Positions 3,683 to 22,605 of a DNA stretch of 22,605 nt are shown one piece after another. A program made the translations under genes and the position numbers. The notes under the pieces are model-generated. The model did not search any database and was not told the origin of the DNA. It saw only the letters and a program-made list of their open reading frames with translations. Origin of the DNA: Blepharisma japonicum (Eukaryota > Ciliophora > Heterotrichea > Heterotrichida > Blepharismidae). The stretch covers positions 1-22,605 of the forward strand of contig CATKHK010000188.1 in the NCBI GenBank assembly GCA_949751835.1, in the 5' to 3' direction. Each line of letters opens with the position of its first letter. The stretch's first letter is position 1.

Positions 3683-6600
3683 TTAAAATTTCAAAACAAT
3701 GTCTTCATGATGAACTTTAGATGATTCACGATCGCTGGAATCTATAATCGAGTATTTATCCTTCAATTCGTCTGGTGAGATTTTGTGTGAAAATTGAAAC
3801 TTATAAAACAAGCTGATATCCTTCCCAGGCACAGAGTATAAAAAGTTTGGATAAAATTTTTCCTGAAAAGTATATCCAAATATAGCTAAACACATTCAGC
3901 CCAAGCCTAATAAAGATATTCATATAAAGACGCTGCTGTTGTTGACTAATGAATAAATAGACGAAAGAATTGAGCTTCAAATTACTGCCAGAATTGAAAT
4001 TAGTGCTCATAAATTGATTCTATTATAATTGTAAGGTTTATAGAAAAAAGAATAAGCTAAAAATAGTGTGAGGCATACAATATATAAAAGACCGTACAAA
4101 GAATTGCTGTATTTTCCTAAAGTTGCTTTTAAAGCAATCGCAAGTATTTGAAGGATACTTTTTGCGATCAAATAGTGATCATTGCTACAAATATTTTTAT
4201 CGGAGCTAAGAGATTCATAATAAGGTCTCCATAAAATTGTGCAAGGAATAAAAAAAAGCAAGCCAATTGAAGCAAGAATTGCAAGAGATAAATGCAAATC
4301 ATGCCAGCAGAAATAATTGCAGTCTCCATATAAAAATGATTCAAGGATATTGGAGCTTATACCCTTTGTGCATCGAAATAGTGAATACAGAGAATTGATG
4401 GCAGTAATGAATAATAGGTTGCTAATAAGTGGTAGCAGCTCTTTTGCGATGTCACAGATCGATGCCATAAAAGAGAATATTCTTTTTTCCTCAATTTTAA
4501 AATACAGTAGGATGTAAAAAACTGGTGTGACCAGAGAGACTATTAAAGCTGTATAAATTTTTGGTCAAAAGATTTTGCTGTCATATGTTGTGGTATTTGC
4601 CAAATTTCCAGATATTCAATCGAAACCATTGGAAATTTTTGAATAAATAAAATCTGGACTTAAAGCTAAAAGTTGTAAAGTCTCTATTAATAAGCCAAGA
4701 ATAGCTAATCAATCTCGGAATTTTATTTCTCTTTTATCTTCAATAATAGGAAGTGATGAGCCTCAATACTTCGAAATACGAATAAACGATAGTGCTAGGC
4801 CTAAAACAGTTCAAAACGCGACGACACTATAATATATAATTTCCCCTTTTTCAGAGTCTTGAACCTGTTTACGGATAAAAGGGCAATTAAGCGAATCTAC
4901 TTTGATATCACTAGGAACCTGATTTCCTCCATCAGGCCAAGTTATAGTTTGATCAAAAGTCAGCACAGGATTTCTCACAATTGAATACGAGCCAACTGGA
5001 AAATCTTCCCATATCCCCGTTGTTGAATTAGTTATCAGATTATTAATCCCCACTATCATTTCTTCAGGCTCATTTGTTGAGGTCGACATCACTAATTTTC
5101 CTGTACAGCTGAGGATCCTTTGCCTCCTGATTGATTTTAGAAGAGTGTCACGGTCTGTATAGTCTTCACCAAACTGGATTAAAGTATTAATCGCATTTAC
5201 GGCAAGCCATCCAGTGTTAAAAGCGTGGCAATCATAAGATACAGGAGATTGGCCCCATCACTCTTTTATGCCTTCATAAGTTTGTTTGCCAAAATCTCCA
5301 ATCCACTCAGCTTGAAAAAAAGTTAGCGATCCATAATATAACTCTTCACACTTTGATATAATTTCTGGTTCAAGGCCAACTGCATAATATGGAAATCAGG
5401 AGACAGTCTGGTAAAACAAAAAAATCGCATCGCCCCTTCTCAATCCTAAATCATATAAATGGGATGTTAAATAGAAATTGCTCAAAAGATCAACTAATAC
5501 AAAAAGGGCAAAGATTCTACCATTTGTTTGGATTGCATGGGTAAGATGGCCTTTGTATTCTTCAAAGTCTTTGCGAGAATATGAAGCCTTGATTATTCTC
5601 TTATCTACATCATTCAAAACTTGTATCCCATTTTTATTTGCTACATTCATAAAGCCATTGTATAAGGTTTTTCCTAAGGTCGTGTTTTCATACATGACAA
5701 CCACATTTTTCCAGCCAAAAATCCTCATCATAAGTGCCATTGTGGCGGAATGGAGCTCAAAACCTTTTACCACTCTGGTAAATTCAGGGAATCGACTTTG
5801 ATCGTTGAGATCAGTAGAATAACAAAAATCCCCAAGTATTGGAATTTTTAATCCCATTTCTCTGAAATCACTAATGGTACCTAAACATACTTCATCGTGG
5901 ATCGATGGTATGAAAATAACTCCAAACTTGTCTTTCTGATTTAAGAAGCAGTTATAGGAAAAATCGTGCTGATAATACTCTGCACTGCAATCAGTTTCAT
6001 GCAGCTCTAGCTCAAAATTTTTAATTAAATTTGTTTTGTTTGCATAATTGAGTGCATATAGTGTTGGAATCCTTATAATTCAAGTTCCTCTGTGGACAGC
6101 CCCATCATAGTTTGAAATGCCATCAGAAATTGATATCTTTATTTTTGAATTATGTGAATCAGGAAAATCGTATGTATTCCCAGGAAATATTGGGGCTTTA
6201 AGTAGATTGACTTGGCCATTATAGATAGTCCCAATAATTACTCTCTGCCCATTTTGAATATTCACAATTGAAAATCTATATCCTTCCATATCTAAGTATT
6301 TTTTAAGTACAAAATTTGATTCTGATAAGGTATTTATTTTTTGAAGAAAATTTAAAACTGAAGCATTCTCATACTCATCGGAATTCTTTACAAATTCAAG
6401 ACCTTCTTGAACTATAATTATAAGACCTTCTTGGTCTGCGCCTCATATGCCTTTGCTTCATAGTATTATTCCTGCATTTTTATTATAAATTTTATTTTTT
6501 ACAAATGACCTTAATAACTTATTTGCTCCTTCCCCTTCATTTAAAATAACAGCATTATTTAATCCTGTAGTTTTTACCTCTTTTCCAATAAAATAATTAG

Positions 6601-7108
6601 TAGCATCCTCGTTTCTGTCATTCGGATAGCAATATAAATTCTTATTATTTATATCTGAATGAAAAAAATTACTCAGTTTTATTGCACTTTCCGAGTCACT
6701 ATAAATCAAATTGTATTGGTACCAATTCAAATAAAGTAAAAAGCTCTTTAAAGCTTCATAATGAGCTTGTTCAGGAAATAGAGAAAAATAGCTTCAGTCA
6801 GAAAAATTTTCAAATGGCTCTCGAACTATTATGTGAACAAAACTATATAATTTTGCAGCCTTAGCAAGCTTTACTTGTAGTAGAATGTTGTAAGTGACAT
6901 CGATTGCAATGCTATATTGCCACATAAAGCTGTCAATTGGATCCTCTATTTTCACTTCGACAATGTTTAGTTCTGTCACATTCAGATCAGAATTTTTGAA
7001 AAAGGCAACCATTTGGCCTATTTTGCTTTGGTTGCTATCTTGGCCTATTGCAATAATAACTGTTGGCAAGCAGGAAGCTATATGTATAAGAAATATAGCC
7101 AAAATCAT
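3683..7108 (-). CDS. Double Venus-flytrap multi-pass receptor-like protein, diverged copy (gene A)
   Basis: A single uninterrupted frame of 1141 residues, given UGA=Trp, ends in TAA. The ATG at 7106-7108 was chosen because it is followed directly by a good signal peptide (MILAIFLIHIASCLPTVIIA). The frame stays open upstream to another ATG at 7214-7216. Residues ~20-340 form a degenerate first ligand-binding domain. Residues ~343-720 are a clear ANF_receptor-type domain: FPEFTRVV, then MRIFGWKNVVVMYEN (Trp ~466), a conserved QAEWIGDFG, and CTGKLVM near its end. Cys742 (NCPF) precedes about nine hydrophobic helices. A Cys-rich external loop carries FRCTKGISSN and DCNYFCW, and PYNYNRINLW lies before the last two helices. 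The tail keeps a conserved helix (ISPDELKDK) and ends Ser/acidic-rich. I infer a cell-surface sensor. It is the most diverged of the four intact copies and the most distant from the telomere. Confidence 0.85.
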
Positions 7109-7784
7109 TATTATATTTCATCAGATATAAGATTTAGAATAAAACCATAATTACGAATGATGTCGGATCTCAAAATAGATTCAAGAAGACTAAGAGCTAT
7201 AAGGCTTGAACTCATGCAATATAAAATATAGATACAAGGAATGGAGCCCTTTGTGGACCTGAGAAGGAAGCCCCAAGAATTAGGCATAATAGTTAAAAAT
7301 TAAACCGAGAACTAAAAAGACTAATAAATATTATTTTAAATTCTATATATTCAGAATGTTCAATTTGATGATAAAATAATCAGAAGAAAGAAAGCTATAA
7401 TAATTCTATTATTCGGTGATTAAATTTAGTCTACATTCAAAAAGCTTAGCATAGAATTTGAAAGATAATATTGTTTTCTTAGTGTGATAAAGATAATAAT
7501 TATGTATTTGGCATATTGATTTTAATTTAATTCTATTCTCAGCAACTATCTTAAAATAATTTGAAAAATCACAGAGCACTTTCTATCATTTAGGAATTTA
7601 AAACAGAGAGGAGAAGTTGAAATTCTGAATGGCAATCTTAAGAATAAGCAATTAGGAGCCAAAAGCAATTATAGCACTTAGAGCTTCAAGCAAGATGTTC
7701 TCCTAGATAAAAGGATATCTATCTATATATTGAAGGATAAAAATCTTCAAATAGATGTATATTTTCCTAATTAAAGGAGTACCC
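7109..7784. other. Gene-free AT-rich stretch upstream of gene A
   Basis: Apart from a possible N-terminal extension of gene A (open frame to about 7216), I can support no gene here. The right part (about 7600-7780) contains short open + strand stretches such as GEVEILNGNLKNKQLGAK, broken by TAG. They match no other part of the array that I could find by eye. It may hold the promoter of gene A and the eroded 5' part of the + strand pseudogene that begins near 7785. Confidence 0.4.
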
Positions 7785-8815
7785 TATAATTGGAATTTAT
7801 AACATAAAATGAGATGAGAGTCCGCAAAAATTATATGAGGATCTAGTTGAGTATACAACTATAGCAAAGTTCAATTAATCACGTTTTACAAAAGCATAAT
7901 ATGATATGACGATACTACAAATGTACCTAGCGATACAGTGGATTATGAAAATGTCTGCCCGTTTCCTGCGAGAGTAATTTTTCGTTCAACCTCAAACTTG
8001 ATGCTTTATATGAACTTGCAGCTGGACTGGCAGTTATTACGTTTTTTGAGTCTTTTTGGATTTGAGAAAAATGTTTAAAACAATTCAGGATAAAAAAATT
8101 AACTGAGTCTGCTCATATACAATTTGAGGATTATATTTTGATGGGAGTTTTGGTAATAGATTTTTTCCAGTTTATTTCTCAAGGCCCAGATATCAGCAAA
8201 TTATTTCCTTGATTATTTTTTTATGCACTTATCCAATGATTAATTTTGACACTTTTGCTAGGATGATAATTATTGAATTTATTTATATGTCGCAGTGGTA
8301 ATTTCAAGCTATTGAATTTTTACAGCTTTTGTTTTACAGATTAAGTAAGTTTTTTAGATAATGCTAAAGCATGCAAGAAATCTTTCACTACTATTGCTTG
8401 TGCCAATGATTTCGGTTCTTTCCAGTATTTTTCAATGTGATGAAGGGATTGGCGATGATAATATTACAGAATCTTTTATAAAGCAAGAATGTACAACATA
8501 TTGCTGGAATGGTAAATATATCTTATGATGATGAGGTTTTCAATAATTTCATTATTATCCTATATTCCTTTAGCTATTTTTCTTAGATATTATTATGAAA
8601 TTATCAATTGTCAATAAACATAAGAACTAATCCAATTTTTTACAATAGAGAAAGCTATTTACCAAGTAATTATCGTTGTTTTGAATAAAACATTAAAAAA
8701 TTACAGCGAATTATTGCATGGAATTTATTGTATAATCCTTTTCCTTTTACTAATTTTACTATGCCCTAAACAAAATGCTTATAACTATCACAGAATGAAT
8801 TTTTGATTTAGCAGA
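7785..8815 (+). pseudogene. Broken + strand copy of the receptor family (end of second flytrap domain plus membrane domain)
   Basis: The + strand reads in pieces as the C-terminal half of the array family. The pieces in order are: VQLITFYKSIIWYDDTTNVP; VCPFPARVIF; a long in-frame run from ~7995 to ~8240 containing HIQFEDYILMGVLVIDFFQF and SQGPDISKLF; ARNLSLLLLVPMISVLSSIFQ; CDEGIGDDNITESFIKQEC with TYCW; then NKTLKNYSELLHG and AYNYHRMNFW. Several frame changes and UAA/UAG stops separate them. A small deletion has removed the PIIGNIAF-like stretch of membrane helix 4. No signal peptide, first flytrap domain or start is present. This is the only copy on the + strand. It stops at NYHRMNFW near 8815, where a minus-strand copy's C-terminus begins, so this is an inverted, truncated relic and not a working gene. 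Confidence 0.8.
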
Positions 8816-10250
8816 AATCACATTTGCTATAGAAAACTTGAAGAAAATTATAATATTCAAGACCTTTTAAGTGAAAAGTTTGCTTGGCAGTAATTTTCAT
8901 TGAATTATTATCCCAAGTTCTATCGCAATAGCCCATGTAAAGTATTGAAGAGTAAGTCATAATACTGATGATTCAAATTTTGTAAGCCAATAAATTGTTA
9001 ATAAAATAGAATTCCATACAACCCCCAAGATATGAGATAATTAATCAAAAATTAATTCTGTTATAATTGTAAGGCAGTTGCTTAAACATAGTAAAATAAA
9101 TATTGAGAATATAATAATGCAACAAAGTCCATGCAAATATTCATCATAGACTTTTATGGCTTTATGCATAACTATTATGATAGCCTGGATAGCAGTTTTT
9201 TCAATAATAAAAACTGGCTATGTTCTTACATTTATATGCTCGCTAATATTTTCATAATAAACCCTCTAAATTGACTTGAATATTAACTCTTAAGTCTTTA
9301 GACACAGTCATAAACTCAGGAAAAACTGTTTTATTCTGCAAAGCAATTGAAGGAGAATATGGAGAAATGCTTGGTATTGAGCAATTCAGAGACCTTAATG
9401 TATAAATATAGCTTATTGCAATATATTGGTAAGCGGATGTTACAAAGCCGACACCTGGGGTTGAAAGTAGTTTAGAAAAGCAAGAAAAACCATAAGCTGC
9501 ATTGTACACTGCTTCCCCACAGTCAGTGTGGGTTACTTTTATAATAAAGTCGTCTAAATTAAGAAGATTTTTCCAGTAGGTTAAGGCATAGAATTCTCTA
9601 TTTGCGATTCTTGCAATTGCAATATCAGAAATTGTGCCTGGATTCGTGGTCCCGTCTGTGATCCATATATTTAAGTCAGTAGTAGGGGAGTTTGGAATTG
9701 CTGAAGAATTTCCTGGATAAGTTAGGTATTCAAATATCATTAAATTCCCATTAAAAATATTCCCTACTATAACGATTTTACTATTTTTTGTTTTAAAAAA
9801 ATGTGAAATTTGATACAGGATGATGACTGATTGGATTTTTATTTAAAATTGAGCAAGTCTGAAGGTTCAGAAGGAAGAGCCAGAATCAGATTTAAAAATT
9901 TAATAAAGGCTAAGTATTCATAGCCATAATGGCTATGAGCAGCTTCTAGACCAGATTCTGAGTAGCCAATAACTCCATTTCCACATAAATTTCAGGCACT
10001 TTAACTTCCTATAATAACTTCGGTTCCGAATACCATCAAATTGCTCTTTTCAAACTTTTAAGAAGCAATTTTGTGCTTTCCCTCTATTTAAAATTACAAT
10101 ATTTCTAATCCCAGTGGGCTTAATTACCTTACCGATAAATAAATCAGTCACGACTTCATTATTACTATTTGAGAAATAAAGCCAATTGCAATTACTATCA
10201 TAAAAATAATTTTCTATTCCATATAACTTATCATTGACGATGAAGTTTTT
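8816..10250 (-). pseudogene. Internally deleted, frameshifted minus-strand copy of the receptor family
   Basis: On the minus strand, starting near 10245, parts of the first flytrap domain are readable (NEVVTDLFIGKVIKPTGIRN). They are followed by frameshifts through the region matching SESGLEAA and LAFIKFLNLIL. An intact stretch follows (9740 down to ~9265) with YPGNSSAIPNSPTTD, the Trp-containing start of the second flytrap domain, PGVGFVTSAYQY and FPEFMTV. Around 9265 the sequence jumps, in a different frame, to the membrane domain (YYENISEHINV, IIEKTAIQAIIIVM, YLHGLCC). Compared with intact copies this removes roughly 490 residues. More frame changes follow, and the recognisable end is IIIFFKFSIANVISA near 8820-8870. 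The N-terminus and signal peptide are not recognisable. The copy was probably once a full member of the tandem array between A and B. Confidence 0.8.
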
Positions 10251-10490
10251 AAAACATAAAATTTATGATAAAGTACGAGGATTCAATAAATTGATGGTGG
10301 AATATTTTATTATTTTTAATTGAAGAATCGCTCTATTTGGCTGTTTATAGGCAAAAAGTAATAATTCAACTTAATTCAGGTTTATTACCAGGAACTTATA
10401 ATTTTTCGCTTTGTGAAACAAACTTAAATGAATATAAACTGAGCATATGATTATAAAAAATTGGTAAAAATTAATAAGGGCTATTAAAAT

Positions 10491-13400
10491 TTACATCAAT
10501 CTAATGCTTGAATTATAAGATCGATCCCCAAAATAATGCTTGTTAACCTCAATTGAGCAATTTGACTCCTTAAGCTCTTTTTTAATTTTATTGATTTCAT
10601 TAGCAGGAACATGGCTCCCCATAGAAAATTTGAAAAAAATTGCAATATTCGTTGATTTTTCAGTTAATAATAAGCTAGGAATTTTTTTGTTTTGAATTAT
10701 ATAGCCAGCTATAATTAAAATTATCCATACTGAGCATTGGAGGATAGGTCACAATATTGGAGATTCAAACCTAATAAGCCAATAAAGAGATGATATAATA
10801 AAGCTACATATAATTCCCGAATAAGAAATAATTAGCCAAAGATTCATTCTGTCATAGTTATATGGGTTTTGCTTGAAACTTACAATAATCAAAATAAGAA
10901 AAAATCCAGTACAGCAAAGCCCATGCAAGGACTCATCATAAACCATAATAGTTTTTTTCATAACAACTATAACAATCCTAAAAACAGTTTTTTCAATAAT
11001 AAATATTGGTTTTGTTTTAATATTGATATGATCATTAATAAATTCATAATACACTCTAAAATATATAGCTAGAGGAATATAAGTCACTAGTGAAACTATT
11101 GAGAGAGTTGCTCATAAAATATATTTACTGTTCCAGCAATATGTGTTGCAGTCATTCTTTATAAAAGAATCTGTAAGATTTGAGCCAACTCCTTTATCAC
11201 ATTGAAAAATACTTAAAAGTACTGAAACCATGGGTAAAAATATTATATCTCCAATTATCGGTAGCAAAAGTATCGCAAGTTCTCTTGTGTAATCAAGGAA
11301 TTTAATTTTCTTAGAAACTAATAATCAAGCTGAAAAAATTCAATAGCAAGAAATAATCATGGTAGAGTACAAGTAAATTCAGTATATATTACCTGTCGTA
11401 TCGGAATCAAAATGAATAATTGAATAGCTGCATAAGAAGTATAGCCAAGGAAATAATTCAGTTATATTTGGGCCTTGAGATAAAATTTGTAAAACATCTA
11501 TAACCAAAATTGCTATTAATATATAATCTTCGAAATGCACACGGACTGGATTTAACAATTTTTCTATTTTTATACTTTGTCAGAATTTTTTTCATATATA
11601 AACTGATTCAATAATTGTAACGAAAATCAGCGATATAGAAATTCCATATAAAATCCCAGCACCTTTATCAGAGCGGTAAATCTTTCGAGCAGGAAACGGG
11701 CAACCATTTTCATAAATTATTAAATCAGTAGGCACATTTGTTGAGTTGTCATATCATATAATGCCTGAATAGAATTGTATTAACTGGGCACTGCTGGCAT
11801 CATATAATCCTACAAGATTCTCATATAGCAATTGAGCATTCTCATCTCATCTTAAATTGTAAATCCCAAATGTAGGCAAACTTCTATGGTTACCCCCTGG
11901 CTCAATTGATACAGTTCCGGAGCATCCTACGAATTTTTGTTTTCTCATATTTGAATTAATTATTCAATTGTCTTTGACATTTTGGCCTTGTTGGATAGTA
12001 AATTTTATTCCATTTAGTAATAGCATTGCAGCATCAAATACTAAGCAACGAAAATCAGTTCCCAATTTATATTCTTTTACGAACCCATTTTCCAGCATTT
12101 TGCCATACTCTCCAATCCACTCAGCTTGAGCAATAATAACTGTTCCATACAACAGCTCAATTAGTTTTCTTCTTTGTATAAAGTCTGTCTCTCATATAAG
12201 CGAATACGCAACCCTTGCATTCGATAAAAATAATACATCTCCCATTCTCAATCCAGTATCATAAAAGCTTTGCACAACATGAAACCAGTAAGGAGGAGTT
12301 AAAAAAATCACAATAAGCCTACCCTTTAGACTTATTATTCTCTCAAACCAGTTCTTTCATTCTGAATATTTATCTAAAGTATAATAAGTGTCTATTAGCC
12401 TTAGATCAGGTCCATTTAAAATATTCATATCAAATCGTTCCACTTTTTCAATAAAATACTCATAAGTATTTGCATTGGCTTCATCATGAATAACTACAAA
12501 ATTTTTCCAACCAAAAATTACAGCAAGGTTGAGAATTACTTCAGTATTGTATTTTTCATCTTTTATTATCGTCATGAATTCAGGAAAAGCTGTTTGATTT
12601 TTAAGAATGCTTGAAGCAGAATATCCAGAGACATTAGGGATTGAGCAATTTAAATATCTTAATGTATAAATATAAGCAATGCTCATATATCAATAAGGAG
12701 ATGTTAAAAATCCTACACCAGGAGTGGTAAGGAGCTTAGAAAAGCAGGAAAGCCCATAGGCGGAATCATACACTTCTGCTCCGCAGTCGGTAGGGATGGC
12801 TACTACTTCAAACCCTTCTAATTCATGAGTACTTTTTCAATAACTTAAAGCATAAAAGCCTCCATTGGCAAGATTTGTTACAATAATGTCTGGAGAGGAG
12901 CCTGGATTGGTGGTTCCATTGGCTATTCATACATTAATCTCAGTAATTGGTGAGTTTGGGATTATTGAAGAATTTCCTGGATAAATTACAGTGTTAAATA
13001 TAGCCAAATTTCCATTTAAAATATTTCCTACTATATTTTTGTTGTAATTTTCTGAATTTATTATAGTAAAATTTGATATGGGATGATGATTGATTGCATT
13101 TTTATTTAGAAATTCCAGTAATGCCGAAGGATCGGAAGATAGAGGAAAACTCAATATCAAATTTAAAAATTTTATGAAGGCAAGACCTTCATAGCTTAAA
13201 TAGCTATCAGCAGCTTCTAGGCCAGATTCTGAATAACCAATAATTCCGTTTCAATGCAAGCCTCAAATCCCTTCACTCCCGATAATTATTCCAGTCCCAA
13301 GATTCAAAAAATTGTGGTTTTCCAAGCTTTGTATTAGTAATTTGGTACTTTCTCCTTGATTTAAAATTACAATATTTTTTATCCCACTGGGTTGGATTAC

Positions 13401-13919
13401 TTTTCCAATGAATAAATCAGCTGATTTTTCATTGTTGCTATTTGAGAAATAATATCAATAGCAATTTTTATCAGCAAAATAACTATTGTTTTCATTGTTG
13501 ATTTCATCTGAGATTAAAATGAATGTTTCTCAATTTAAATAGGTAATGAGGCTATATAACGCTTCAAGCTTATTTTCTCATGAATTATGAATAAAAAACT
13601 CCCTTTTTGAATATTCAGCTGGCGAGTTATCGAAATAAGCGATTATGGAATTTTTTTTTTCTGCTGATTCTTTAATTATCTCTGACAAAGAGTAACTAAA
13701 AGTAAGATCAAAAATTATATCAGCTAAAAACTTTTGAATATCCTTAGAGTTCTCAACGTAAACCAAATTAAACTCGATTTGGCCAGAGAACCTTTGTTGT
13801 AGTATAGAGTTTAAATTTGAAATAAAATCTAAACTTGAAAAATTGCTATAAGCTATATCAACAATTAGCTGAGATCGTGCAAGAATCATTGTGAATATTA
13901 AAATTTTTGAATAATTCAT
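10491..13919 (-). CDS. Double Venus-flytrap multi-pass receptor-like protein (gene B)
   Basis: One frame of 1142 residues, read with UGA=Trp, ends in TAA 10491-10493. The ATG at 13917-13919 was preferred over in-frame ATGs at 13961 and 13997 because it matches the start of gene D and gives a compact signal peptide (MNYSKILIFTMILARSQLIV). Residues ~20-310 are a first flytrap-like domain (ITYLNWETFILISDE, NIVILNQGE). A glycosylatable linker YPGNSSIIPNSPITE leads to a second domain (~331-700) with FPEFMTII, VIFGWKNFVVIHDE (Trp471), AEWIGEYG and RKQKFVGCSGTVSIEPGGN, a classic ANF_receptor ending. Cys740 (GCPFPAR) opens the membrane part of about nine helices. FQCDKGVG and DCNTYCW lie in one external loop, and LHGLCC and PYNYDRMNLW (~1019) follow. 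The cytosolic tail holds FFKFSMGSHVPANEI. Inferred role: surface chemoreceptor, ligand and output unknown. Confidence 0.88.
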
Positions 13920-14059
13920 TGGTGACTTTGGAAAATCTGTCGTGATTCTTTGTTCTCTCATATTTAATATAAATTTTTCTAAATAAAATGTAAACATAAA
14001 GAAATAAGTATAAAATATATTACAAATTAGACTTGCTAAATCATAATATTTATTTGAAA

Positions 14060-17000
14060 TTATTCTGATACCATTATTACTTGTGATGTACTAACAACTA
14101 ATTGGGATTCAAGTATTGAAGCTTTCATTTTTTTGGAATTTTTTTTAGATTCCATTAGATCTCTTTTCATTTTATTGATTTCAGCAGCAGTTATTTTGTT
14201 TCCTAATGAAAATCTAAAAAAAATTGCAATGTCTAATGGCTTATCTGTATACAATAAGCTCGATAATCATCTGCATTGAATTGCAATGCCTATTGCTATA
14301 AATATACAGAATACTGAACTTTGAAGAGTTAATCAGAGCGTTATCGAATCAATTTTCATCAGCAAGTAACCAGTTGATACGATAAAGCTTCATAAAACAG
14401 CGGAATATGAAATAATTAGCCACAAATTCATCCTATGGTAGTTATAAGGTCTTTGCTTTAAAGTAATACCCAAAAAAATGAGAAAAAGGATAATACAGCA
14501 AAATCCATGCAAAGACTTATCATGAATTTTAATGGTTTTATTTATAGCTATGATAATAAGCTGAAAAATCGTTTTTTCTATAATAAAAAGTGGTTTTGTT
14601 TTTATACTCGTGTTTTTGTTGATATTCTCGAAATAATGCCTGAAATATATAGAAAGGGGGATATAAGCCGCTAAAGAAAAGATTGAAAGACCTCCTCAAA
14701 AAATATATTTTTTATTCCAACAATAAGTATTACAGTCTTGCCTTATAAACGAGTCAGTGATATTTGGACCTATTCCTTGGTCACATTGAAAGAAACTTAA
14801 AAGTATTGAAACCATGGGTACAAATGCTATATTTCCAATTATAGGCAACAATAGCATAGAAAAATTTTTAATACGCTCTAAAATCATTCTTAGACAATTA
14901 TTCATCCTATAAAATAATAAAAATGCTGTAAAACTCAAATGGAAAGACATTTCCATCGCCGTCATTAAATAAATTCAATATTTGCCCCCTGTAACTGTGC
15001 AATCAAAATTAGCCAATGAATAGGTAGACAATAAGGATAATCATTCATTCCATACACTTATATCTGGTCCTTGAGATATAAATTGCAAAAAATCTGTTGC
15101 TATTATTGCCATCAAAATATAATCGTCAAATTGGACTAAGGTCGGTGTTGTTAATTTTTTTACTCTTAAGTTTCTTCAATATTTTCGCCAAATAATAAAT
15201 GACTCAATTATCGAAATAAGAACCAATATGGCAGAAATTCCATATAAAATTCGAAAACCTTTTTTTGAGTGAGAAATCATTTTTGCAGGAAATGGGCAGC
15301 CATTTTCATAGCCAAAAGTATCTTTAGGCACATTTGTGGTATTGTCATATCATACTATTGCCTTATAAAATGTTAACAAGCTATCGCTGCTAAGATCATA
15401 TTTTCCTACCAAGTCCTCATACAATTTTTGAGAGTTTTCATCTCACATTATATTGTAAATCCCAATTGTAGGCAGACTTCTGTGATTAGTTCCTGGCTCA
15501 ATTGATATTGTTCCAGAGCACCCTGTGAATTTTTGTTTTCTTATATTTGTATTCATTAGTTCATAATCCTTGACATTTTGGCCATTTTGTATAGTAAATT
15601 GTATCCCGTGCAGAAGTAGCATTGCAGAATCAAATGCTAAGCAGCGAAAATCAGTACCATTGATATAGTCTTTTGTAAAGCCTTTTCTTATCATTTCTCC
15701 ATAATCTCCAACCCATTCGGCTTGGGAAATAACAACTCCTCCATACAGCAGTTCAATCAATTTCTTCTTTTGCTCTGGGTCAGTGTCTCACTCAAGTGAA
15801 TATGCAACTCTAGCATTGCTTAAATAAAAAAAGTCACCCCTCCTCAGTCCAGCATCATAGAAGCTTTCAGTGACATACATTCAATAAGGAGGTGTTAAAA
15901 ATTTAATCATAAGCCTGGGTCTTAATTTTAATATCCCTTCAAACCACCATTTCCATTTTGGATAATCATCCCTTGTATAATATGTATCAATTATTTGCAG
16001 TTCTGGAGGATTTACAATCCTCATATTGAACTTTTTTAATTGGGTAGCAAAATAATTGTAAATTGGTATACCTGCATAATCATAAATAACTATAAAATCT
16101 TTTCAGCCAAAAATTAATGCGAGATTTATTATGGCTTGGGTATTGAAGGCTTCGTTTTTTATAACAGTCATAAACTCTGGAAAAAGTTTATAATTTTCTG
16201 CAATATTTGAAGAAGAATATGGAGAAATGTGTGGCATTGAACAGTTTAAAGATCTCAATGTATAAATATAGCCAATAGCTAGTCATGAGTAAAGAGATGT
16301 TAAAAAGCCGACACCAGGAGTTTTAATTAATTTAGAGAAGCAAGAATGGGCATAATCCGCATCGTATATTGTTACCCCGCAATCTGTGCTAGTGACTGTT
16401 ATATCAAAGCCATCTAATGCATGAATGCTTTTTCAATATTTTAAAGCATAAAGTTCTACATAAGTCATAGTTGTTGCAAGTATCTCAGGATAAGTGCCTG
16501 GATTTGTGGTTCCATTAGCAATTCATATATTTATATCTGTTGTAGGGGAGTTTGGAATTAATGAGGAGTTCCCAGGAAAAGTCAAAGAATCTAAAAGAGC
16601 TAAATGTCCATTGTAAATATTTCCTACAATTAGATTTTCAGTATTTTTGACATTTAATAGTGAAAAATTAGAAATTGGATGATGGTCAACTGTATTTTTA
16701 TTTAGAAACGCAAGCAAGCCTAAAGGATCTGATGCTGAAGGGCATTCAAGAACTAGATTTAAAAATTTTATAAGTGCCAAACCTTCAAAGCTGTAATAGC
16801 TATCAGCATTTTCTAACTCTGATTCTGCATAAGAAATGACTCCATTTCCATATAAGTTTCATGATCCTTCATTTCCTACAATAACTCCAGTCCCATGAGT
16901 GATCAAGCCTTGCAAATGCAAACTTTTCAAAAGTAAATATGTGCTTTCTCCTTGATTTAAAATAATTATATTTCTTATCCCAGTGGGCTGAATTCGTTTT

Positions 17001-17521
17001 CCTATAAACAAATCCGCTGAATTCTTATTGCTGTCATTAGCGAAACAAAATCATTTGAAATGCTTTCCTGAGAAATAATAATTATCTTGATTATCAATTC
17101 GATCAGAAATCACAATAAAAGTTGTTCAGTTTAAGTATGAAATAATGCTTGACAAAGCTTCAATTTGGCTTTTCCATGGATTATGAGTAAAAAATTGCCA
17201 ATTAGAATATCAATTAATTGGCTCAGTAATTTCAACTATTATTATATGCTTTTCTTCAGCCAGTTCTATTATTGACTTTGATAATGATGCACTAAAAGTT
17301 ATGTCAAAAATTATATTTGGACTATCTTCAAGATTTTCAATATCCCAAATGTTTTCAATGAAGACTAAATTAAATGAAAATTGATCTTGAAAATTTTGTT
17401 TTAGTAAAGCTGTCAAATTTGGAGTCAGATGTGAATCTGTAAAAGAGCTGAAAATTATATCAACAATTAACTGAGATATTGTAAGAATTAATGAGCAAAA
17501 TGTAATTCATAGAGCCCACAT
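14060..17521 (-). CDS. Double Venus-flytrap multi-pass receptor-like protein (gene D)
   Basis: One frame of 1153 residues with UGA=Trp ends in TAA 14060-14062. The start is well fixed: the ATG at 17519-17521 lies one codon after an in-frame TAA and opens a signal peptide (MWALWITFCSLILTISQLIV). It has the same domain order as gene B: first flytrap domain to ~310, linker FPGNSSLIPNSPTTD, second domain from ~333 with FPEFMTVI, IFGWKDFIVIYD, AEWVGDYG and RKQKFTGCSGTISIEPG, Cys742 in GCPFPAK, then about nine helices. One loop carries FQCDQGIGPN and DCNTYCW; LHGFCC and PYNYHRMNLW follow. The tail is long and basic (ITAAEINKMKRDL, then a Lys/Ser-rich stretch) and ends IMVSE. Its 3' end is only 140 bases from the start of gene B, so the promoter of B must be very short or overlap the 3' region of D. 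Confidence 0.88.
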
Positions 17522-17864
17522 TGATTAAATAACTATTGACATTATATTTATTTTTTTGTATTTCTCCAATATTGCATAAATTATTTCGAAAAATTTCTTA
17601 AAATAAAAAGAAGGAATATTATTAATAGGCTAAGATGTGTTGGGAATAGATTATTTGAATGCTAAACCTAACTACTGGATACTTGCAGTGTAGCTAAACT
17701 ACAAGAAATGGCAAATACTCGAATCACATAAATTCGAATAAGTTGACTAAAATAAACTTGATAATTTCTATAAGAAATAAAAGATAATATGGCAATTGGT
17801 TGGAGATTATAAAAATATTAATTGATAAAGGAATTTTATATGAGAGAATTGAAGATTGGAATAA
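17522..17864. other. Intergenic region between genes D and E
   Basis: This stretch of 343 bases must hold the promoter of gene D and the 3' end of the gene E transcript. It is AT-rich with stops in all frames. A + strand open stretch from about 17800 overlaps the end of gene E and is its shadow; I see no independent gene, repeat or palindrome that I can support. Confidence 0.5.
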
Positions 17865-20800
17865 TTATTCCGATATCACATTATCATTAATAGTAGGGAT
17901 AATCCTAGTTGAATTTATTATTATTGATTCTTTGCTTTTATTTGAGTATCTTGAATTGTTTAAATTTTTTTTCATTCTATTTAGCTCTGCAGCTGTAATT
18001 GCACTTCCTATTTCAAATTTAAAGAAAATCGCAATATCTAGGACCTTATCGGTGTTTAATAAACTTGGGCATCATTTGCATTGAATAGCAATACCTGCTG
18101 CTATTAAAATAAACCACCCCCAAAAATGCAAAGCAATCCAAAAATTTTGAGAAGAAAAATTCGAGATTCAGTAAATACTTGATAAAATAAAGCTTCATAA
18201 AATAGCCAGATAAGAAATAATAATCCAAAGATTCATTCTATGATAATTATAAGGGCTTTGCTTAAAGCAAATTAGGGTCATTACGAGAAAAAGGATGCAG
18301 CAGCAGAATCCATGCAAAGATTGACTGTATATTTTGACAGTTTGATTCATAACGATAATAATTATTTGGCAGACTACTTTTTCTACAATAAATATTGGAT
18401 TTGTTCTAATGTTAATGTGATCATTAACAATTTCATAAAAATATCTTAGATAAATAGTTAAAGGAATATAGGCTAGCAAAGAAATTATTGCGAAAACTCC
18501 TCATAAAGTATAGGCATTATCCCAACAATGAGTTGTACAGTCATGCCTTATAAAAGAATCTGTAATTTTTGAGCCAATTCCCTGATCACATTGAAAAATG
18601 CTTAAGAGTACTGAAACCATAGGCACAAATGCTATATTTCCAATTATAGGCAGCAAAAGTAAAGAAAGATTTTTTATATGCCTCAGCATTTCACTTAATA
18701 GCTTATTTAGCCTATAAAACAATAAAAAAGCTGTAAACATCCAAAAGCAAGAAATCGTCATAGCGGTATATAAATAAGCCCAGTAAATATCACCTCTGAC
18801 TGTAGAATCAAAGTTAGTCATTGTATAAGTACACAATAAGGATAGTCATCCATATAATCCACTTATGTCAGGTCCTTGAGAGATAAATTGGAAAAAATCT
18901 ATAACCAGAACTGTCATCATGATATAATCTTCAAATTGTACATAAGAAGGTATTACTAATTTCTGTATTCTAATTTTTTTTCATAATTTATTTCATATAA
19001 AAATCGATTCAATAATTGTGATAATTATTATTCCAATGGAAATTCCATATAGCATTCCAGCCCCTTTTTTAGACCTGTAAATCATTTTAGCTGGAAATGG
19101 GCAGCCATTTTCATATGTAATTAAATCTGTCGGCACATTTGTGGTATTATCATATCATAAGATCTGACTATAAAAAGTAATTAACTGTGCACTACTTAGA
19201 TCATACAAACCTGTGAATTCTTCATAAACCTCCTGAGTAGTTTCATTTCATCTTAAGCTGAAGATCCCAAAAGTAGGTAAACTTCTCTGATTACTCCCTG
19301 GTTCAATTGATACAGTCCCTGAGCAACCTAAAAACTTTTGTTTTCTTATGTTTATATTCAAGGTTTCATAATCCTTTACATTTCCTCCATGCTTTATAGT
19401 ATATGCAATACCATTTAGAAGAAGCATTGCAGAATCAAATGCTAGGCAGCGAAATTCTAATTGGTTTCCATATTCTTTTATAAAGCCTTTTGAAAGCATT
19501 TGTCCATATTCACCAATTCACTCAGCTTGAGCAACAGCAATTGCACCATAAAAAACCTCAATGACTTTTCGTCGCTGGACTAAATCGGTTTCTCAAGGAA
19601 TTGCATACGCCATTCTTGCGTTGCATAAAATTATCATGTCACCTGTTCTAAGCCCTGCATCATAGAAGCTTTCAGCTACATGAAATCCATAAGGAGGTGT
19701 TAAAAATGAGACTAAAAGTCTAACCTTCAAATTTATTAAACTTGTAAATCAATTTTTTCATTGGGGATATTTGTCTCTGGTGTAGTATGCATCTATTTGC
19801 CTCAGATCAGGGCCATTTGCAATGATCATGTTATATTGCTTGACTTTTGATAAAAAAAAACTATAAGTCCTTAAATTGTTTTCATCATAAATCAGTACAA
19901 AATGTTTCCAACCAAAAATAACTGCAAGATCTAAAATTACCTGGGTATTGAAAGTTTCGTCTTTTATTATTGTCATGAACTCAGGAAAAAGCGTGTTATT
20001 CAGAGAAAGAGCTGAAGGACCGTAAGCCGAAATGTGGGGCATTGAAAGATTCAAAGACCTTAATGCTAAAATGTTGCCTATTGCTATAAATGGATAAAGA
20101 GATGTTAGATATCCGACACCAGGGGTTGCTAATAATTTAGAAAAACAGGAATATGCATAAGTTAAATCAAATACTGTAACCCCACAGTCAGTATGAGTTA
20201 CTGTGATTTCAAAGCCATCCAAGCTATGCATATTTTTTCAATAGCTTAAAGCATAAAATTCTCCTGCTGTTGGCTGTCTTGCCAGTAAATCAGGATCAGT
20301 TCCTGGATTTATGGTTCCATCTGCAATTCATACATTTACGTCTGTTGTAGGAGAGTTAGGAATTATTGAAGAATTCCCTGGATAAGTTAGAGACTTTGAT
20401 ATTGTTAAATTTCCATTATAAATTTTTCCTTTCATAATTTTTTCATTCTCTTCGATATTTAATAGAGTAAAGTAGGAAAATTGATGATGATCAACTGTAT
20501 TTTTGTTTAAAAATTCAAGTAATGCCAAGGAATCGAATGCTGAAGGAAAACTGAGTATTAGATTTAGAAATTTTACGAACGCTAAGCCTTCATATATAGA
20601 ATAACTATCAGCACTTTCCAACCCTGATTCTGCATAAGCAATAACACCATCTCCATACAAACCTCAAGAGCCCTTACTCCCTACAATAACTCCAGCTCCT
20701 TTAATTAGCAAGCTTTGCTGAGATATGCTATCTAGTAGCAATTTTGTACTTTCCCCAAAATTTAATATCACAATATTTTTTATCCCAGTAGCCTGAATTA

Positions 20801-21335
20801 CTTTTCCAATAAATAAATCCGAAGAGTTTCTATCATTGCTATTTGCGAAATAAAATCAATGATAATCTTTTTTTGAGAAATAATAAAAAAACTCATCATC
20901 TTCATTATAAATTTCATCAGAAATCACTATAAAAGTCGTCCAGTTTAAATAAGAAATTATGCAGGATAAAGCTTCCATTTGGTTTTCTCATGAACTATGA
21001 GTAAAAAACTCTCAATCAGAATATGTGCCAACTGATTTGCTGATACTAGCAATTATGGTCGAACTTTCAGCAGCGAATTCCTTAATTGATTCTGCTAATA
21101 AAGAACTAAAAGTAATGTCAAATATTATATCTGGACTATTCCTAAATTGCTGGTAACCTGAAATGATGTCAAGATAAGTCAAATTAAATTCAAATTGGTC
21201 TTGGAAATTTTGCTGAAGTAAAGAAGTTATATTTGAAACAAAAACGGGATTTGTGAAGGAGCTTCATGCTATATCAACAACCAGTTGACCTCTAGCAAAA
21301 ATAGCAATGATAAAAGAAAATTCTATGATGTTCAT
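17865..21335 (-). CDS. Double Venus-flytrap multi-pass receptor-like protein, telomere-proximal (gene E)
   Basis: One frame of 1156 residues, read with UGA=Trp, ends in TAA 17865-17867. The ATG at 21333-21335 aligns with the starts of B and D and gives a signal peptide (MNIIEFSFIIAIFARGQLVV); a second in-frame ATG 12 codons upstream (21371) is possible. The first flytrap domain contains ISYLNWTTFIVISDE and NIVILNFGE. The linker is YPGNSSIIPNSPTTD. The second domain starts near residue 336 and has FPEFMTII, VIFGWKHFVLIYDE, AEWIGEYG and RKQKFLGCSGTVSIEPG. Cys745 in GCPFPAK leads into about nine helices, with FQCDQGIGSK, DCTTHCW, LHGFCC and PYNYHRMNLW. The tail shares its length, basic character and ..ISE end with gene D. 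It is the last intact gene before the telomere, with its 5' end facing the chromosome end. Confidence 0.88.
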
Positions 21336-21688
21336 TGCTGATTTATTAATTATAAGAAATATTAAAATCATAACTAAAAATCATTGATTGAAATTAATCC
21401 ATAAGTATTTTATCAAAAATAGTCAATAAGTTATAAGGAATTATAATAATAAATATTAGCCTATTTGGGTGAATTTACTTAATTTCAGCTTAGATATTTA
21501 TTTAATCAAAATTTAACCTTTTTAAGAGCAGATGCCTCAATAGGAAAAAATTTCTCACAAAAAGTCCCTAAATATTAGTCTAATAAATCTAAAAATAAGT
21601 TTGATTTGAATGAAAAGAGAGTGATTAAATTAGAGCAATTATAAAATGGTTAGTTAAAAGTAATTTTTAATGATTTTGAAATATAATG
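21336..21688. other. Gene-free stretch upstream of gene E
   Basis: These AT-rich bases lie between the start of gene E and the decayed coiled-coil gene. The gene E frame stays open upstream to a TAA at about 21441-21443, leaving the alternative start at 21371. Beyond that I see no open frame, RNA gene or repeat that I can support. The gene E promoter must lie here. Confidence 0.5.
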
Positions 21689-22502
21689 CTAAGGATAGTT
21701 AATCCTTATAATAGATTTCGCAATTGTTACTGCATAATTATCTAGTTCATCACACATCCTTTTAATTAAGGACAGTGAATAAATTGGAATAACTTTCTGA
21801 TAATGCTGTATATCACCTATTTCTGGCCTTAAATATGCATTTTGTTCTGATAACTGTCTCTTCAAGGCTATGAATTTTTTGTTGTTGAAATATATGTTTT
21901 ATTACTAAAGATGTTTAGATAAGTTTATTTTCAAGTGTCCCAATGTTTGGTATTAGAATACTATCTTTTTGTTGTTGCAATTTTTCAATTTTTCTTTTTC
22001 ATTAATAACAATCTGCTTTTTTTCAGCTAAAGCAGCTATTTCTTGTTTTTAGTCTTTTATTTCTTTATTGAAAGTATCATTATTGTTGTTTCTCAGACCT
22101 AAATTTTCGTTTTCCAAATAGGATTTGCGAAAAGAGTGACTTTTCGGCAGATTGGCTACTCAAATTTTTAATCTGTTATTTTCTCTTTCTAAGGCTAAAT
22201 CGGAGGACTCTAAATTTCTATATATTATTTGAATGGTTTCATTTTTGATTCAACACTATCATATTTAATTTGATTTCTGGTAGGTGCTCTGCATTTTAGA
22301 TTTTATATAATCTTTTTGTTTCAATTCTATGCATCTATTGTTAAGCTCTATTACGCAAATTCAATAATCTTTCACTGTGGATTCTTGAGTGCTTAAAATT
22401 ACTTCTTTTTCCTCCAATTTCTGTTTTAACTCATTAATTTCTTCTTGAAACTTTTTCTAGGCTGTGTTCAGATTATTAATCTTTTTTGATACTTTTTTAA
22501 AT
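21689..22502 (-). pseudogene. Decayed coiled-coil protein gene truncated by the telomere
   Basis: The minus strand reads as a Lys/Glu/Gln/Asn-rich coiled-coil protein in consecutive pieces in different frames: KKFQEEINELKQKLEEKE; STVKDYWICVIELNN; SSDLALERENNRLKIWVAN; SYLENENLGLRNNN; KQEIAALAEKKQIV; LSEQNAYLRPEIGDIQHY; and a final piece ending DELDNYAVTIAKSIIRIN and stop TAG 21689-21691. Frame changes and in-frame TAG/TAA separate them. Several stops sit where Gln would fit (for example between NTA and KKF, and between KD and KQE), as expected from C-to-T changes in CAG/CAA codons. There is no start: the readable sequence begins right at the telomere. I cannot name the family; coiled coils give little specific homology. 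Confidence 0.65.
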
Positions 22503-22605
22503 AGGGTGTTAGGGTGTTAGGGTGTTAGGGTGTTAGGGTGTTAGGGTGTTAGGGTGTTAGGGTGTTAGGGTGTTAGGGTGTTAGGGTGTTAGGGTGTTAG
22601 GGTGT
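22503..22605 (+). repeat. Telomere, (AGGGTGTT)n, C-strand CCCTAACA
   Basis: The last 103 bases are 12 full copies and one 7-base partial copy of the 8-base unit AGGGTGTT without a mismatch. The G-rich strand runs 5' to 3' toward the right end, the orientation of a chromosome's right terminus. The permutation CCCTAACA on the other strand is the telomeric repeat I know from heterotrich ciliates (Stentor, Blepharisma). The array probably stops at the end of the assembled read, so its true length is unknown. Confidence 0.95.

Follow-up and report, generated by a model that had tools for sequence, protein, structure and literature searches.

What kind of protein is encoded by the four large genes that stand beside a telomere in the ciliate Blepharisma japonicum? 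The window analysed here is the entire contig CATKHK010000188.1 (C188; 22,605 nucleotides), one of 224 contigs in a genome of 45.2 Mb (GCA_949751835.1). A sequence-only reading had described the genes, here R1-R4, as a subtelomeric tandem family of receptors with two Venus-flytrap domains and about nine helices. We propose that R1-R4 represent a very large family of ciliate plasma-membrane chemoreceptors, expanded within its lineage, in which the ligand is sensed through the second flytrap domain and the helices transduce the signal. We give this reading a probability of roughly 0.62. The family members are probably cell-surface receptors, located, as we infer, in the plasma membrane, which makes them promising as candidate chemical sensors of the cell.

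With UGA read as tryptophan (table 4), the minus strand of the window (G+C 31%) contains four open frames of 1154-1199 codons, each with 17-22 in-frame TGA codons. They are far larger than the window's other frames of at least 150 codons, which have 251, 673 and 199 codons. The start methionines of R1-R4 were chosen from the family alignment, and the resulting lengths are given in Table 1. Alignment A1 consists of 26 proteins, namely R1-R4 and 22 of the 30 loci L009-L038; L009, L017 and L021 are genes of the window itself, and a further five loci (L015, L020, L023, L024 and L032) were not included. Alignment A2 has 24 proteins, with L025 and L029 also removed due to a long insertion. The predicted layout has the N-terminus outside and begins with a putative signal peptide, flytrap domain 1 (D1) and flytrap domain 2 (D2); a CPF motif next to the membrane then leads into about nine helices, and a short cytosolic tail closes the protein.

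D2 covers about residues 369-779 of R4. The Pfam family ANF_receptor (PF01094, gathering score cut-off 25.4 bits) matched D2 in all four window genes, each time over the gathering score (Table 1). A D2 profile matched PDB chains of taste receptors (T1R), mGluR, CaSR and plant GLR, the best with an E value of 6e-10. Two pocket positions, R4-447 and R4-476, were matched by eye to the serine and threonine that contact the ligand in class C receptors. The first carries serine or threonine in 28 of 36 sequences and the second carries serine in 19 of 36. Alignment-averaged hydropathy also showed an isolated, weaker hydrophobic peak within D2, near R4 508.

The membrane part follows D2. Hydropathy averaged over 28 aligned proteins gave nine hydrophobic peaks between R4 797 and 1120, with split peaks joined. 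Loop charges summed over 33-36 sequences, with helix limits set by hand, fit nine helices with the N-terminus outside and the C-terminus inside (inside about +4.8, outside about -0.5). Fifty columns of R4 780-1150 are conserved in at least 85% of sequences, including C951, D967-C968, C972-W973, P993, K1021, G1044, Y1064-N1065, R1068, W1072 and Q1120. Ahead of helix 1, the CPF motif hardly varies (C in 36/36, P in 33/36 and F in 36/36). No credible Pfam match was found for 26 transmembrane (TM) regions or for that of a distant member on contig C133 (locus L055), and a TM profile matched no PDB chain at E≤10. A search of prokaryote genomes with two peptide patterns gave 33 matches, none of which tblastn confirmed as a relative, and a prokaryotic origin of the helices was rejected on these two patterns. 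In R1-R4, Pfam at E≤1 found no Lig_chan or type II binding domain and no cyclase, and the tail is short, with no catalytic domain recognised by Pfam.

D1 (R4 52-368) appears to be a diverged type I flytrap, supported by homology across the family and weak or undetected in R1-R4 themselves. This argument is carried by the distant members. For C133, D1 alone matched PF01094 with E 2.2e-17 (63.6 bits) and D2 alone with E 1e-42. The D1 of L026 scored 30.7 bits, over the gathering score, with residue 60 aligned to profile position 58. The D1 of the C112 member, scanned alone, came just below the cut-off (E 1.5e-5, 24.7 bits). At E≤1, PF01094 was found in the D1 of 16 of 24 members, with a best E value of 2.1e-7, and in six of ten members whose D1 was scanned singly. 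Thus PF01094 recognised D1 over its cut-off for the family (C133 and L026) and not for each window gene; the D1 of R1-R4 is assigned by family alignment, and their own PF01094 matches are below threshold (R3, R4) or missing (R1, R2). A D1 profile matched the D1 of distant members on C80 (E 4.8e-33), C112 (1.5e-31) and C126 (2.1e-18). Profiles of the window sub-family matched C133 in preserved order, with E values of 1.2e-4 for D1, 5.3e-32 for D2 and 8.1e-62 for the TM part, while among eight shuffled controls searched with the three profiles a single match of 1.7 bits was listed. An AlphaFold2 model of R4 D1, made from an alignment of the four window sequences only, showed the strand-helix alternation of a type I flytrap. 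Foldseek with this model gave 426 PDB matches at E≤0.001 (best 5.2e-9). The 50 matches listed are all ionotropic glutamate receptor (iGluR), mGluR or GABA-B entries, apart from two rows (9mba) titled only G-protein-coupled receptor (GPCR); chain 9mba_D is named mGlu8 among the PDB matches of the D2 profile. All the above indicate that the two flytraps and about nine helices of the sequence-only reading are supported, D2 by PF01094 in every window gene, D1 by homology across the family and the helices by hydropathy and summed charges.

Several results weigh against this picture. D1 gave no PF01094 match at E≤1 in 8 of 24 members, and scanned singly none in R1, R2, L011 and L031 (4/10). Searches against PDB were likewise poor for D1: the profile reached only E 0.027 (an NMDA receptor), C133 D1 nothing better than E 0.051 and R4 alone nothing better than E 0.39. 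The D2 profile touches C133 D1 over 47 columns with 18.1 bits, compared with 16.9 bits for the D1 profile, so the link from the D1 profile to C133 is flytrap-general. The D1 model is weak (mean predicted local distance difference test score, pLDDT, 52; TM-score 0.26-0.33 among the 50 matches listed), and because these scores are low its order of elements was used and not its coordinates. The TM model, made from the same four sequences, was unusable with a pLDDT of 42, and the number of helices is for that reason taken from hydropathy and charge. Foldseek with this poor model found nothing under E 0.001, and no fold of the helices was drawn. Two places go against the charge rule: the inner loop 1 carries a net negative charge and the N-terminal flank a net positive one. 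Conservation of the D2 pocket hydroxyls is partial, and some sub-lineages carry other residues there; such variation would fit a ligand that differs from one sub-lineage to another. Lastly, a profile-profile comparison found no similarity between D1 and D2 (probability 9.9% over 48 columns), and the internal duplication of a single flytrap was dropped on that ground.

Could R1-R4 instead be a diverged metabotropic family, similar to class C GPCRs, that gained extra helices while its 7tm_3 sequence eroded? C133 D2 aligns to GABA-B1 with E 2.7e-11 from the flytrap to about the first helix, and a flytrap without a cysteine-rich domain is the GABA-B layout, as given in a study of GPCRs in animal relatives (PMC12716839). 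However, the alignment ends at about TM1, about nine helices stand against the seven of a class C GPCR, and 7tm_3 was found in none of 26 TM regions at E≤1 and not in the C133 TM part at E≤10. We consider such an origin unlikely. Membership in the class C GPCRs or the iGluRs themselves was rejected, in agreement with the sequence-only reading, as there is no 7tm_3, no Lig_chan or type II domain, and a bundle of about nine helices.

Ligand-regulated transporters or uptake systems, in which the flytraps catch a nutrient and pass it to the helices like a binding protein fused to a permease, are in our view improbable. Type I flytraps do serve bacterial uptake, and some of the conserved residues in the predicted helices are charged or polar (K1021, Q851 and Q1025). 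However, no Pfam transporter family and no PDB chain gave a credible match to the helices, and the two-pattern tblastn scan of prokaryote genomes confirmed no relative. Very many diverged paralogues would also fit sensing better than uptake.

How large is the family to which R1-R4 belong? Seven genome searches, with R4, R1, PF01094, members from C126, C19 and C112, and the C133 helices, gave at least 214 merged loci on 56 of the 224 contigs, 170 of them spanning more than 2 kb. Matches within 350 bases were merged and rows overlapping loci already listed were left out. Each search scored 39-108 of 263-342 first-look candidates, so 214 is a lower bound for matching loci; 13 of the 214 come from the PF01094 search alone, and at least one gene (C133) and probably two more (C57, and C93 near 26 kb) are split in this count. 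The richest contigs are C93 (25 loci), C19 (24), C112 (16) and C126 (15). The order of parts is the same in all six distant members inspected (C112, C126, C19, C73, C80 and C133) as far as their sequences reach, several being cut at one end by the region boundary. Contig C185 ends within a family frame and C176, by eye, begins within one; such small contigs look like broken pieces of arrays, and because the assembly is broken inside arrays the copy numbers are uncertain. One sub-family consists of L055 on C133, C52:244475, C59:63601 and C173, whose helices are 61-75% identical to those of C133 with 0-3 TGA in the matches. The G+C content of L055 is 38%, compared with 30-32% in L051-L054 and L056. 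It may be that the C133 sub-family is a conserved receptor whose ligand is fixed.

The label subtelomeric was not supported for the family. For 15 contigs of known length, which carry 118 loci, the distance to a contig end exceeds 25 kb for 73 loci and is smaller for the other 45. Telomere repeats are absent at all 14 checked ends of other family-bearing contigs, including ends of C93 and C185; these 14 are a sample, and most contig ends lie outside it. Among the telomere places listed (100 of 178, contigs C4 to C89), loci of the family are present on seven contigs with a telomere (C4, C5, C11, C17, C36, C80 and C89), and the nearest distance from a locus to a telomere is about 25 kb (C17), the others being at least 65 kb. 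The published description of the Blepharisma macronuclear genome reports 46,705 potential alternative telomere addition sites (PMC9942806). With so many sites, the end of a macronuclear contig does not mark a fixed end of a chromosome, and being close to a telomere means little.

A maximum-likelihood tree of 31 proteins placed R1 with two C93 genes (100/100), R2 with C185_1 and C176_3 (80/96), R3 with three C185 genes (100/100) and R4 with C160a and C5 (97/98). A long-branch warning applies to C133 and the R1 group, and deep joins are unsure. As R1-R4 group separately with genes on other contigs, the window array holds four older sub-lineages, and a recent local amplification finds no backing in the tree, with a support of only 80/96 for the R2 group. 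Values of dN/dS for 17 pairs were 0.10-0.41 in D1, D2 and TM alike, without an ectodomain excess, and looser in the tail (0.09-0.74); they come from a custom Nei-Gojobori script and are pair averages, so single selected sites are possible, and the values are rough for the three pairs in which dS exceeded 1 in most domains. The pattern would fit working proteins under constraint and does not indicate an ectodomain driven to vary. A subtelomeric surface-variation family with switching between copies, which would suit the position of R4 so close to the telomere, the mixture of live and dead copies and the 45 of 118 loci within 25 kb of a contig end, is therefore very improbable in view of purifying selection in all domains, the 14 of 14 ends without telomere repeats and the scatter of telomere addition sites across the macronuclear genome (PMC9942806). 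From the idea of a fast-evolving chemosensory or surface-variation family, what stands is a large paralogous family with dead copies, for which a chemosensory role is likeliest.

A possible mechanism for R1-R4 as chemoreceptors can be outlined. In a type I flytrap, the lobes close around a ligand held between them. D2 would close on a small, polar, amino-acid-like ligand that differs between sub-lineages. D1, which by eye has no clear second hydroxyl motif, would for that reason serve in modulation or dimerisation, as the amino-terminal domain does in iGluRs. The closure of D2 would pull the linker between the CPF motif and TM1, the movement would be carried into the helix bundle, and the rearranged bundle would relay the signal to the cell interior. 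With its many paralogues, the family would sense a broader range of food, prey or mating cues. Since ciliate chemoresponses run through the membrane potential, we lean slightly towards the helix bundle being an ion channel over its coupling to other proteins. More tentatively, the family might be a third architectural class beside flytrap-7TM and flytrap-pore receptors, in which a pair of type I flytraps would drive nine helices bundled in a new fold, possibly a ligand-gated channel. As some 170+ genes, it might form the main chemoreceptor repertoire of the Blepharisma lineage and could include the receptor for gamone 2, a mating pheromone derived from tryptophan; we know of no identified gamone 2 receptor.

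The layout sets the family apart as a variant of flytrap receptors, because it fits neither the trypanosome cyclases nor the class C/GABA-B receptors. Receptor guanylyl cyclases (ANF receptors) share the PF01094 domain. Whereas these have a single flytrap, one helix and a cyclase domain, R1-R4 combine two flytraps with about nine helices and match no cyclase. Like iGluRs and plant GLRs, the family uses a type I flytrap as an outer domain; the D1 model matched iGluR amino-terminal domains in Foldseek, and C133 matched plant GLR3.4 with E 4.7e-17. Unlike them, it has a type I D2, no Lig_chan, and about nine helices instead of the iGluR pore. Like GABA-B and other class C GPCRs (PF01094 with PF00003), it sets a type I flytrap directly on a helical bundle, but with two flytraps, about nine helices and no 7tm_3. 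Most receptor-type adenylate cyclases of trypanosomes have two flytraps, one helix and a cyclase domain, and are proposed environmental sensors (PMC6027212). R1-R4 resemble these protist receptors in having two outer flytraps, within the limits given above for D1, and differ in the membrane and cytosolic parts, where about nine helices and a short tail with no cyclase match take the place of the single helix and cytosolic cyclase. No description of the family was recognised in the literature from titles and the beginnings of abstracts, a scope that leaves most subscription journals, preprints and protein databases outside.

If these proteins are receptors, a single-celled organism would possess a flytrap repertoire of olfactory size with a transducing part of no known structure. 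A domain-database survey of 27 ciliates reports no family C GPCRs (PMC9960496); as domain surveys select on known 7TM domains, they would probably miss receptors with unmatched helices. The pheromone system of Blepharisma has long been studied, and the candidate list makes chemoreception and the recognition of mating cues directly testable. The receptors of gamone 1 are still termed putative in a 2024 paper on Blepharisma (PMC10892320).

The features of the window are collected in Table 1. The four intact genes on one strand, the two relics of the same family and the telomere beside the array, all noted in the sequence-only reading, were confirmed by table 4 frames with family-alignment starts, by frame-shifting pieces in tblastn and by repeat counting, respectively. 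Both relics sit between R1 and R2, and the minus-strand relic contains the 199-codon frame (9243-9842). At several joins of relic pieces the frame shifts across a gap of 0-4 bases, which leaves no room for an intron.

Table 1. Receptor genes, their domains, relics and telomere in the window (positions from 1 to 22,605).
Feature	Position	Strand	Evidence or remark
R1, intact double-flytrap nine-helix receptor gene, 1141 aa	3683-7108	-	PF01094 E 1.1e-15; most diverged of the four
R1 flytrap domain 1 (D1)	6149-7069	-	aligned to R2-R4; alone no PF01094 match
R1 flytrap domain 2 (D2), ANF_receptor	4886-6148	-	Pfam match
R1 nine-helix membrane region	3863-4834	-	hydropathy, alignment
R2, intact receptor gene, 1142 aa	10491-13919	-	PF01094 E 3.5e-10
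R2 flytrap domain 1	12945-13871	-	alignment; alone no Pfam match
R2 flytrap domain 2	11703-12944	-	Pfam match
R2 nine-helix membrane region	10692-11651	-	hydropathy, alignment
R3, intact receptor gene, 1153 aa	14060-17521	-	PF01094 E 7.2e-14
R3 flytrap domain 1	16541-17473	-	alone PF01094 E 0.0031, below cut-off
R3 flytrap domain 2	15299-16540	-	Pfam match
R3 nine-helix membrane region	14276-15247	-	hydropathy, alignment
R4, intact receptor gene, 1156 aa	17865-21335	-	PF01094 E 2.7e-13
R4 putative signal peptide	21288-21335	-	start placed by family alignment
R4 flytrap domain 1	20346-21287	-	PF01094 E 0.0072, below cut-off; low-confidence AlphaFold2 type I flytrap strand/helix order
R4 flytrap domain 2	19104-20345	-	Pfam match; PDB profile search
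R4 nine-helix membrane region	18081-19052	-	hydropathy, loop charges
Family relic, TM region; five R2-matched pieces, three frames	7774-8800	+	tblastn, table 4
Family relic, D1/D2 pieces, then directly C-terminal TM part	8807-10277	-	tblastn, table 4
Contig-end telomere of 13 perfect TAGGGTGT repeats (other strand, CCCTAACA)	22502-22605		repeat count

The start of R4 lies 1.2 kb from the telomere. Its repeat TAGGGTGT is a permutation of CCCTAACA, permutations of which are given as the Blepharisma telomere in the genome description (PMC9942806). The final 1 kb before it (21500-22500) contains no open frame that reaches 150 codons, and the telomere looks as if it had been joined beside a non-coding or decayed stretch.

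At the other end of the window, the plus strand at 1-756 encodes the C-terminal part of a protein (251 codons) cut by the contig start, with several hydrophobic stretches by eye; all its Pfam matches were below their cut-offs. The 673-codon frame on the minus strand at 954-2975 appears ordinary; it encodes TPR repeats (TPR_11, E 1.9e-32), and its N-terminal half weakly resembles kelch. Elsewhere in the genome, G000:C5:680687-681340 matched 7tm_3 with 38.2 bits (cut-off 33.5) and has two TGA and one TAA inside. It is possibly a class C GPCR gene or a relic of one, which would be of note beside the survey of other ciliates that reports no class C GPCRs (PMC9960496).

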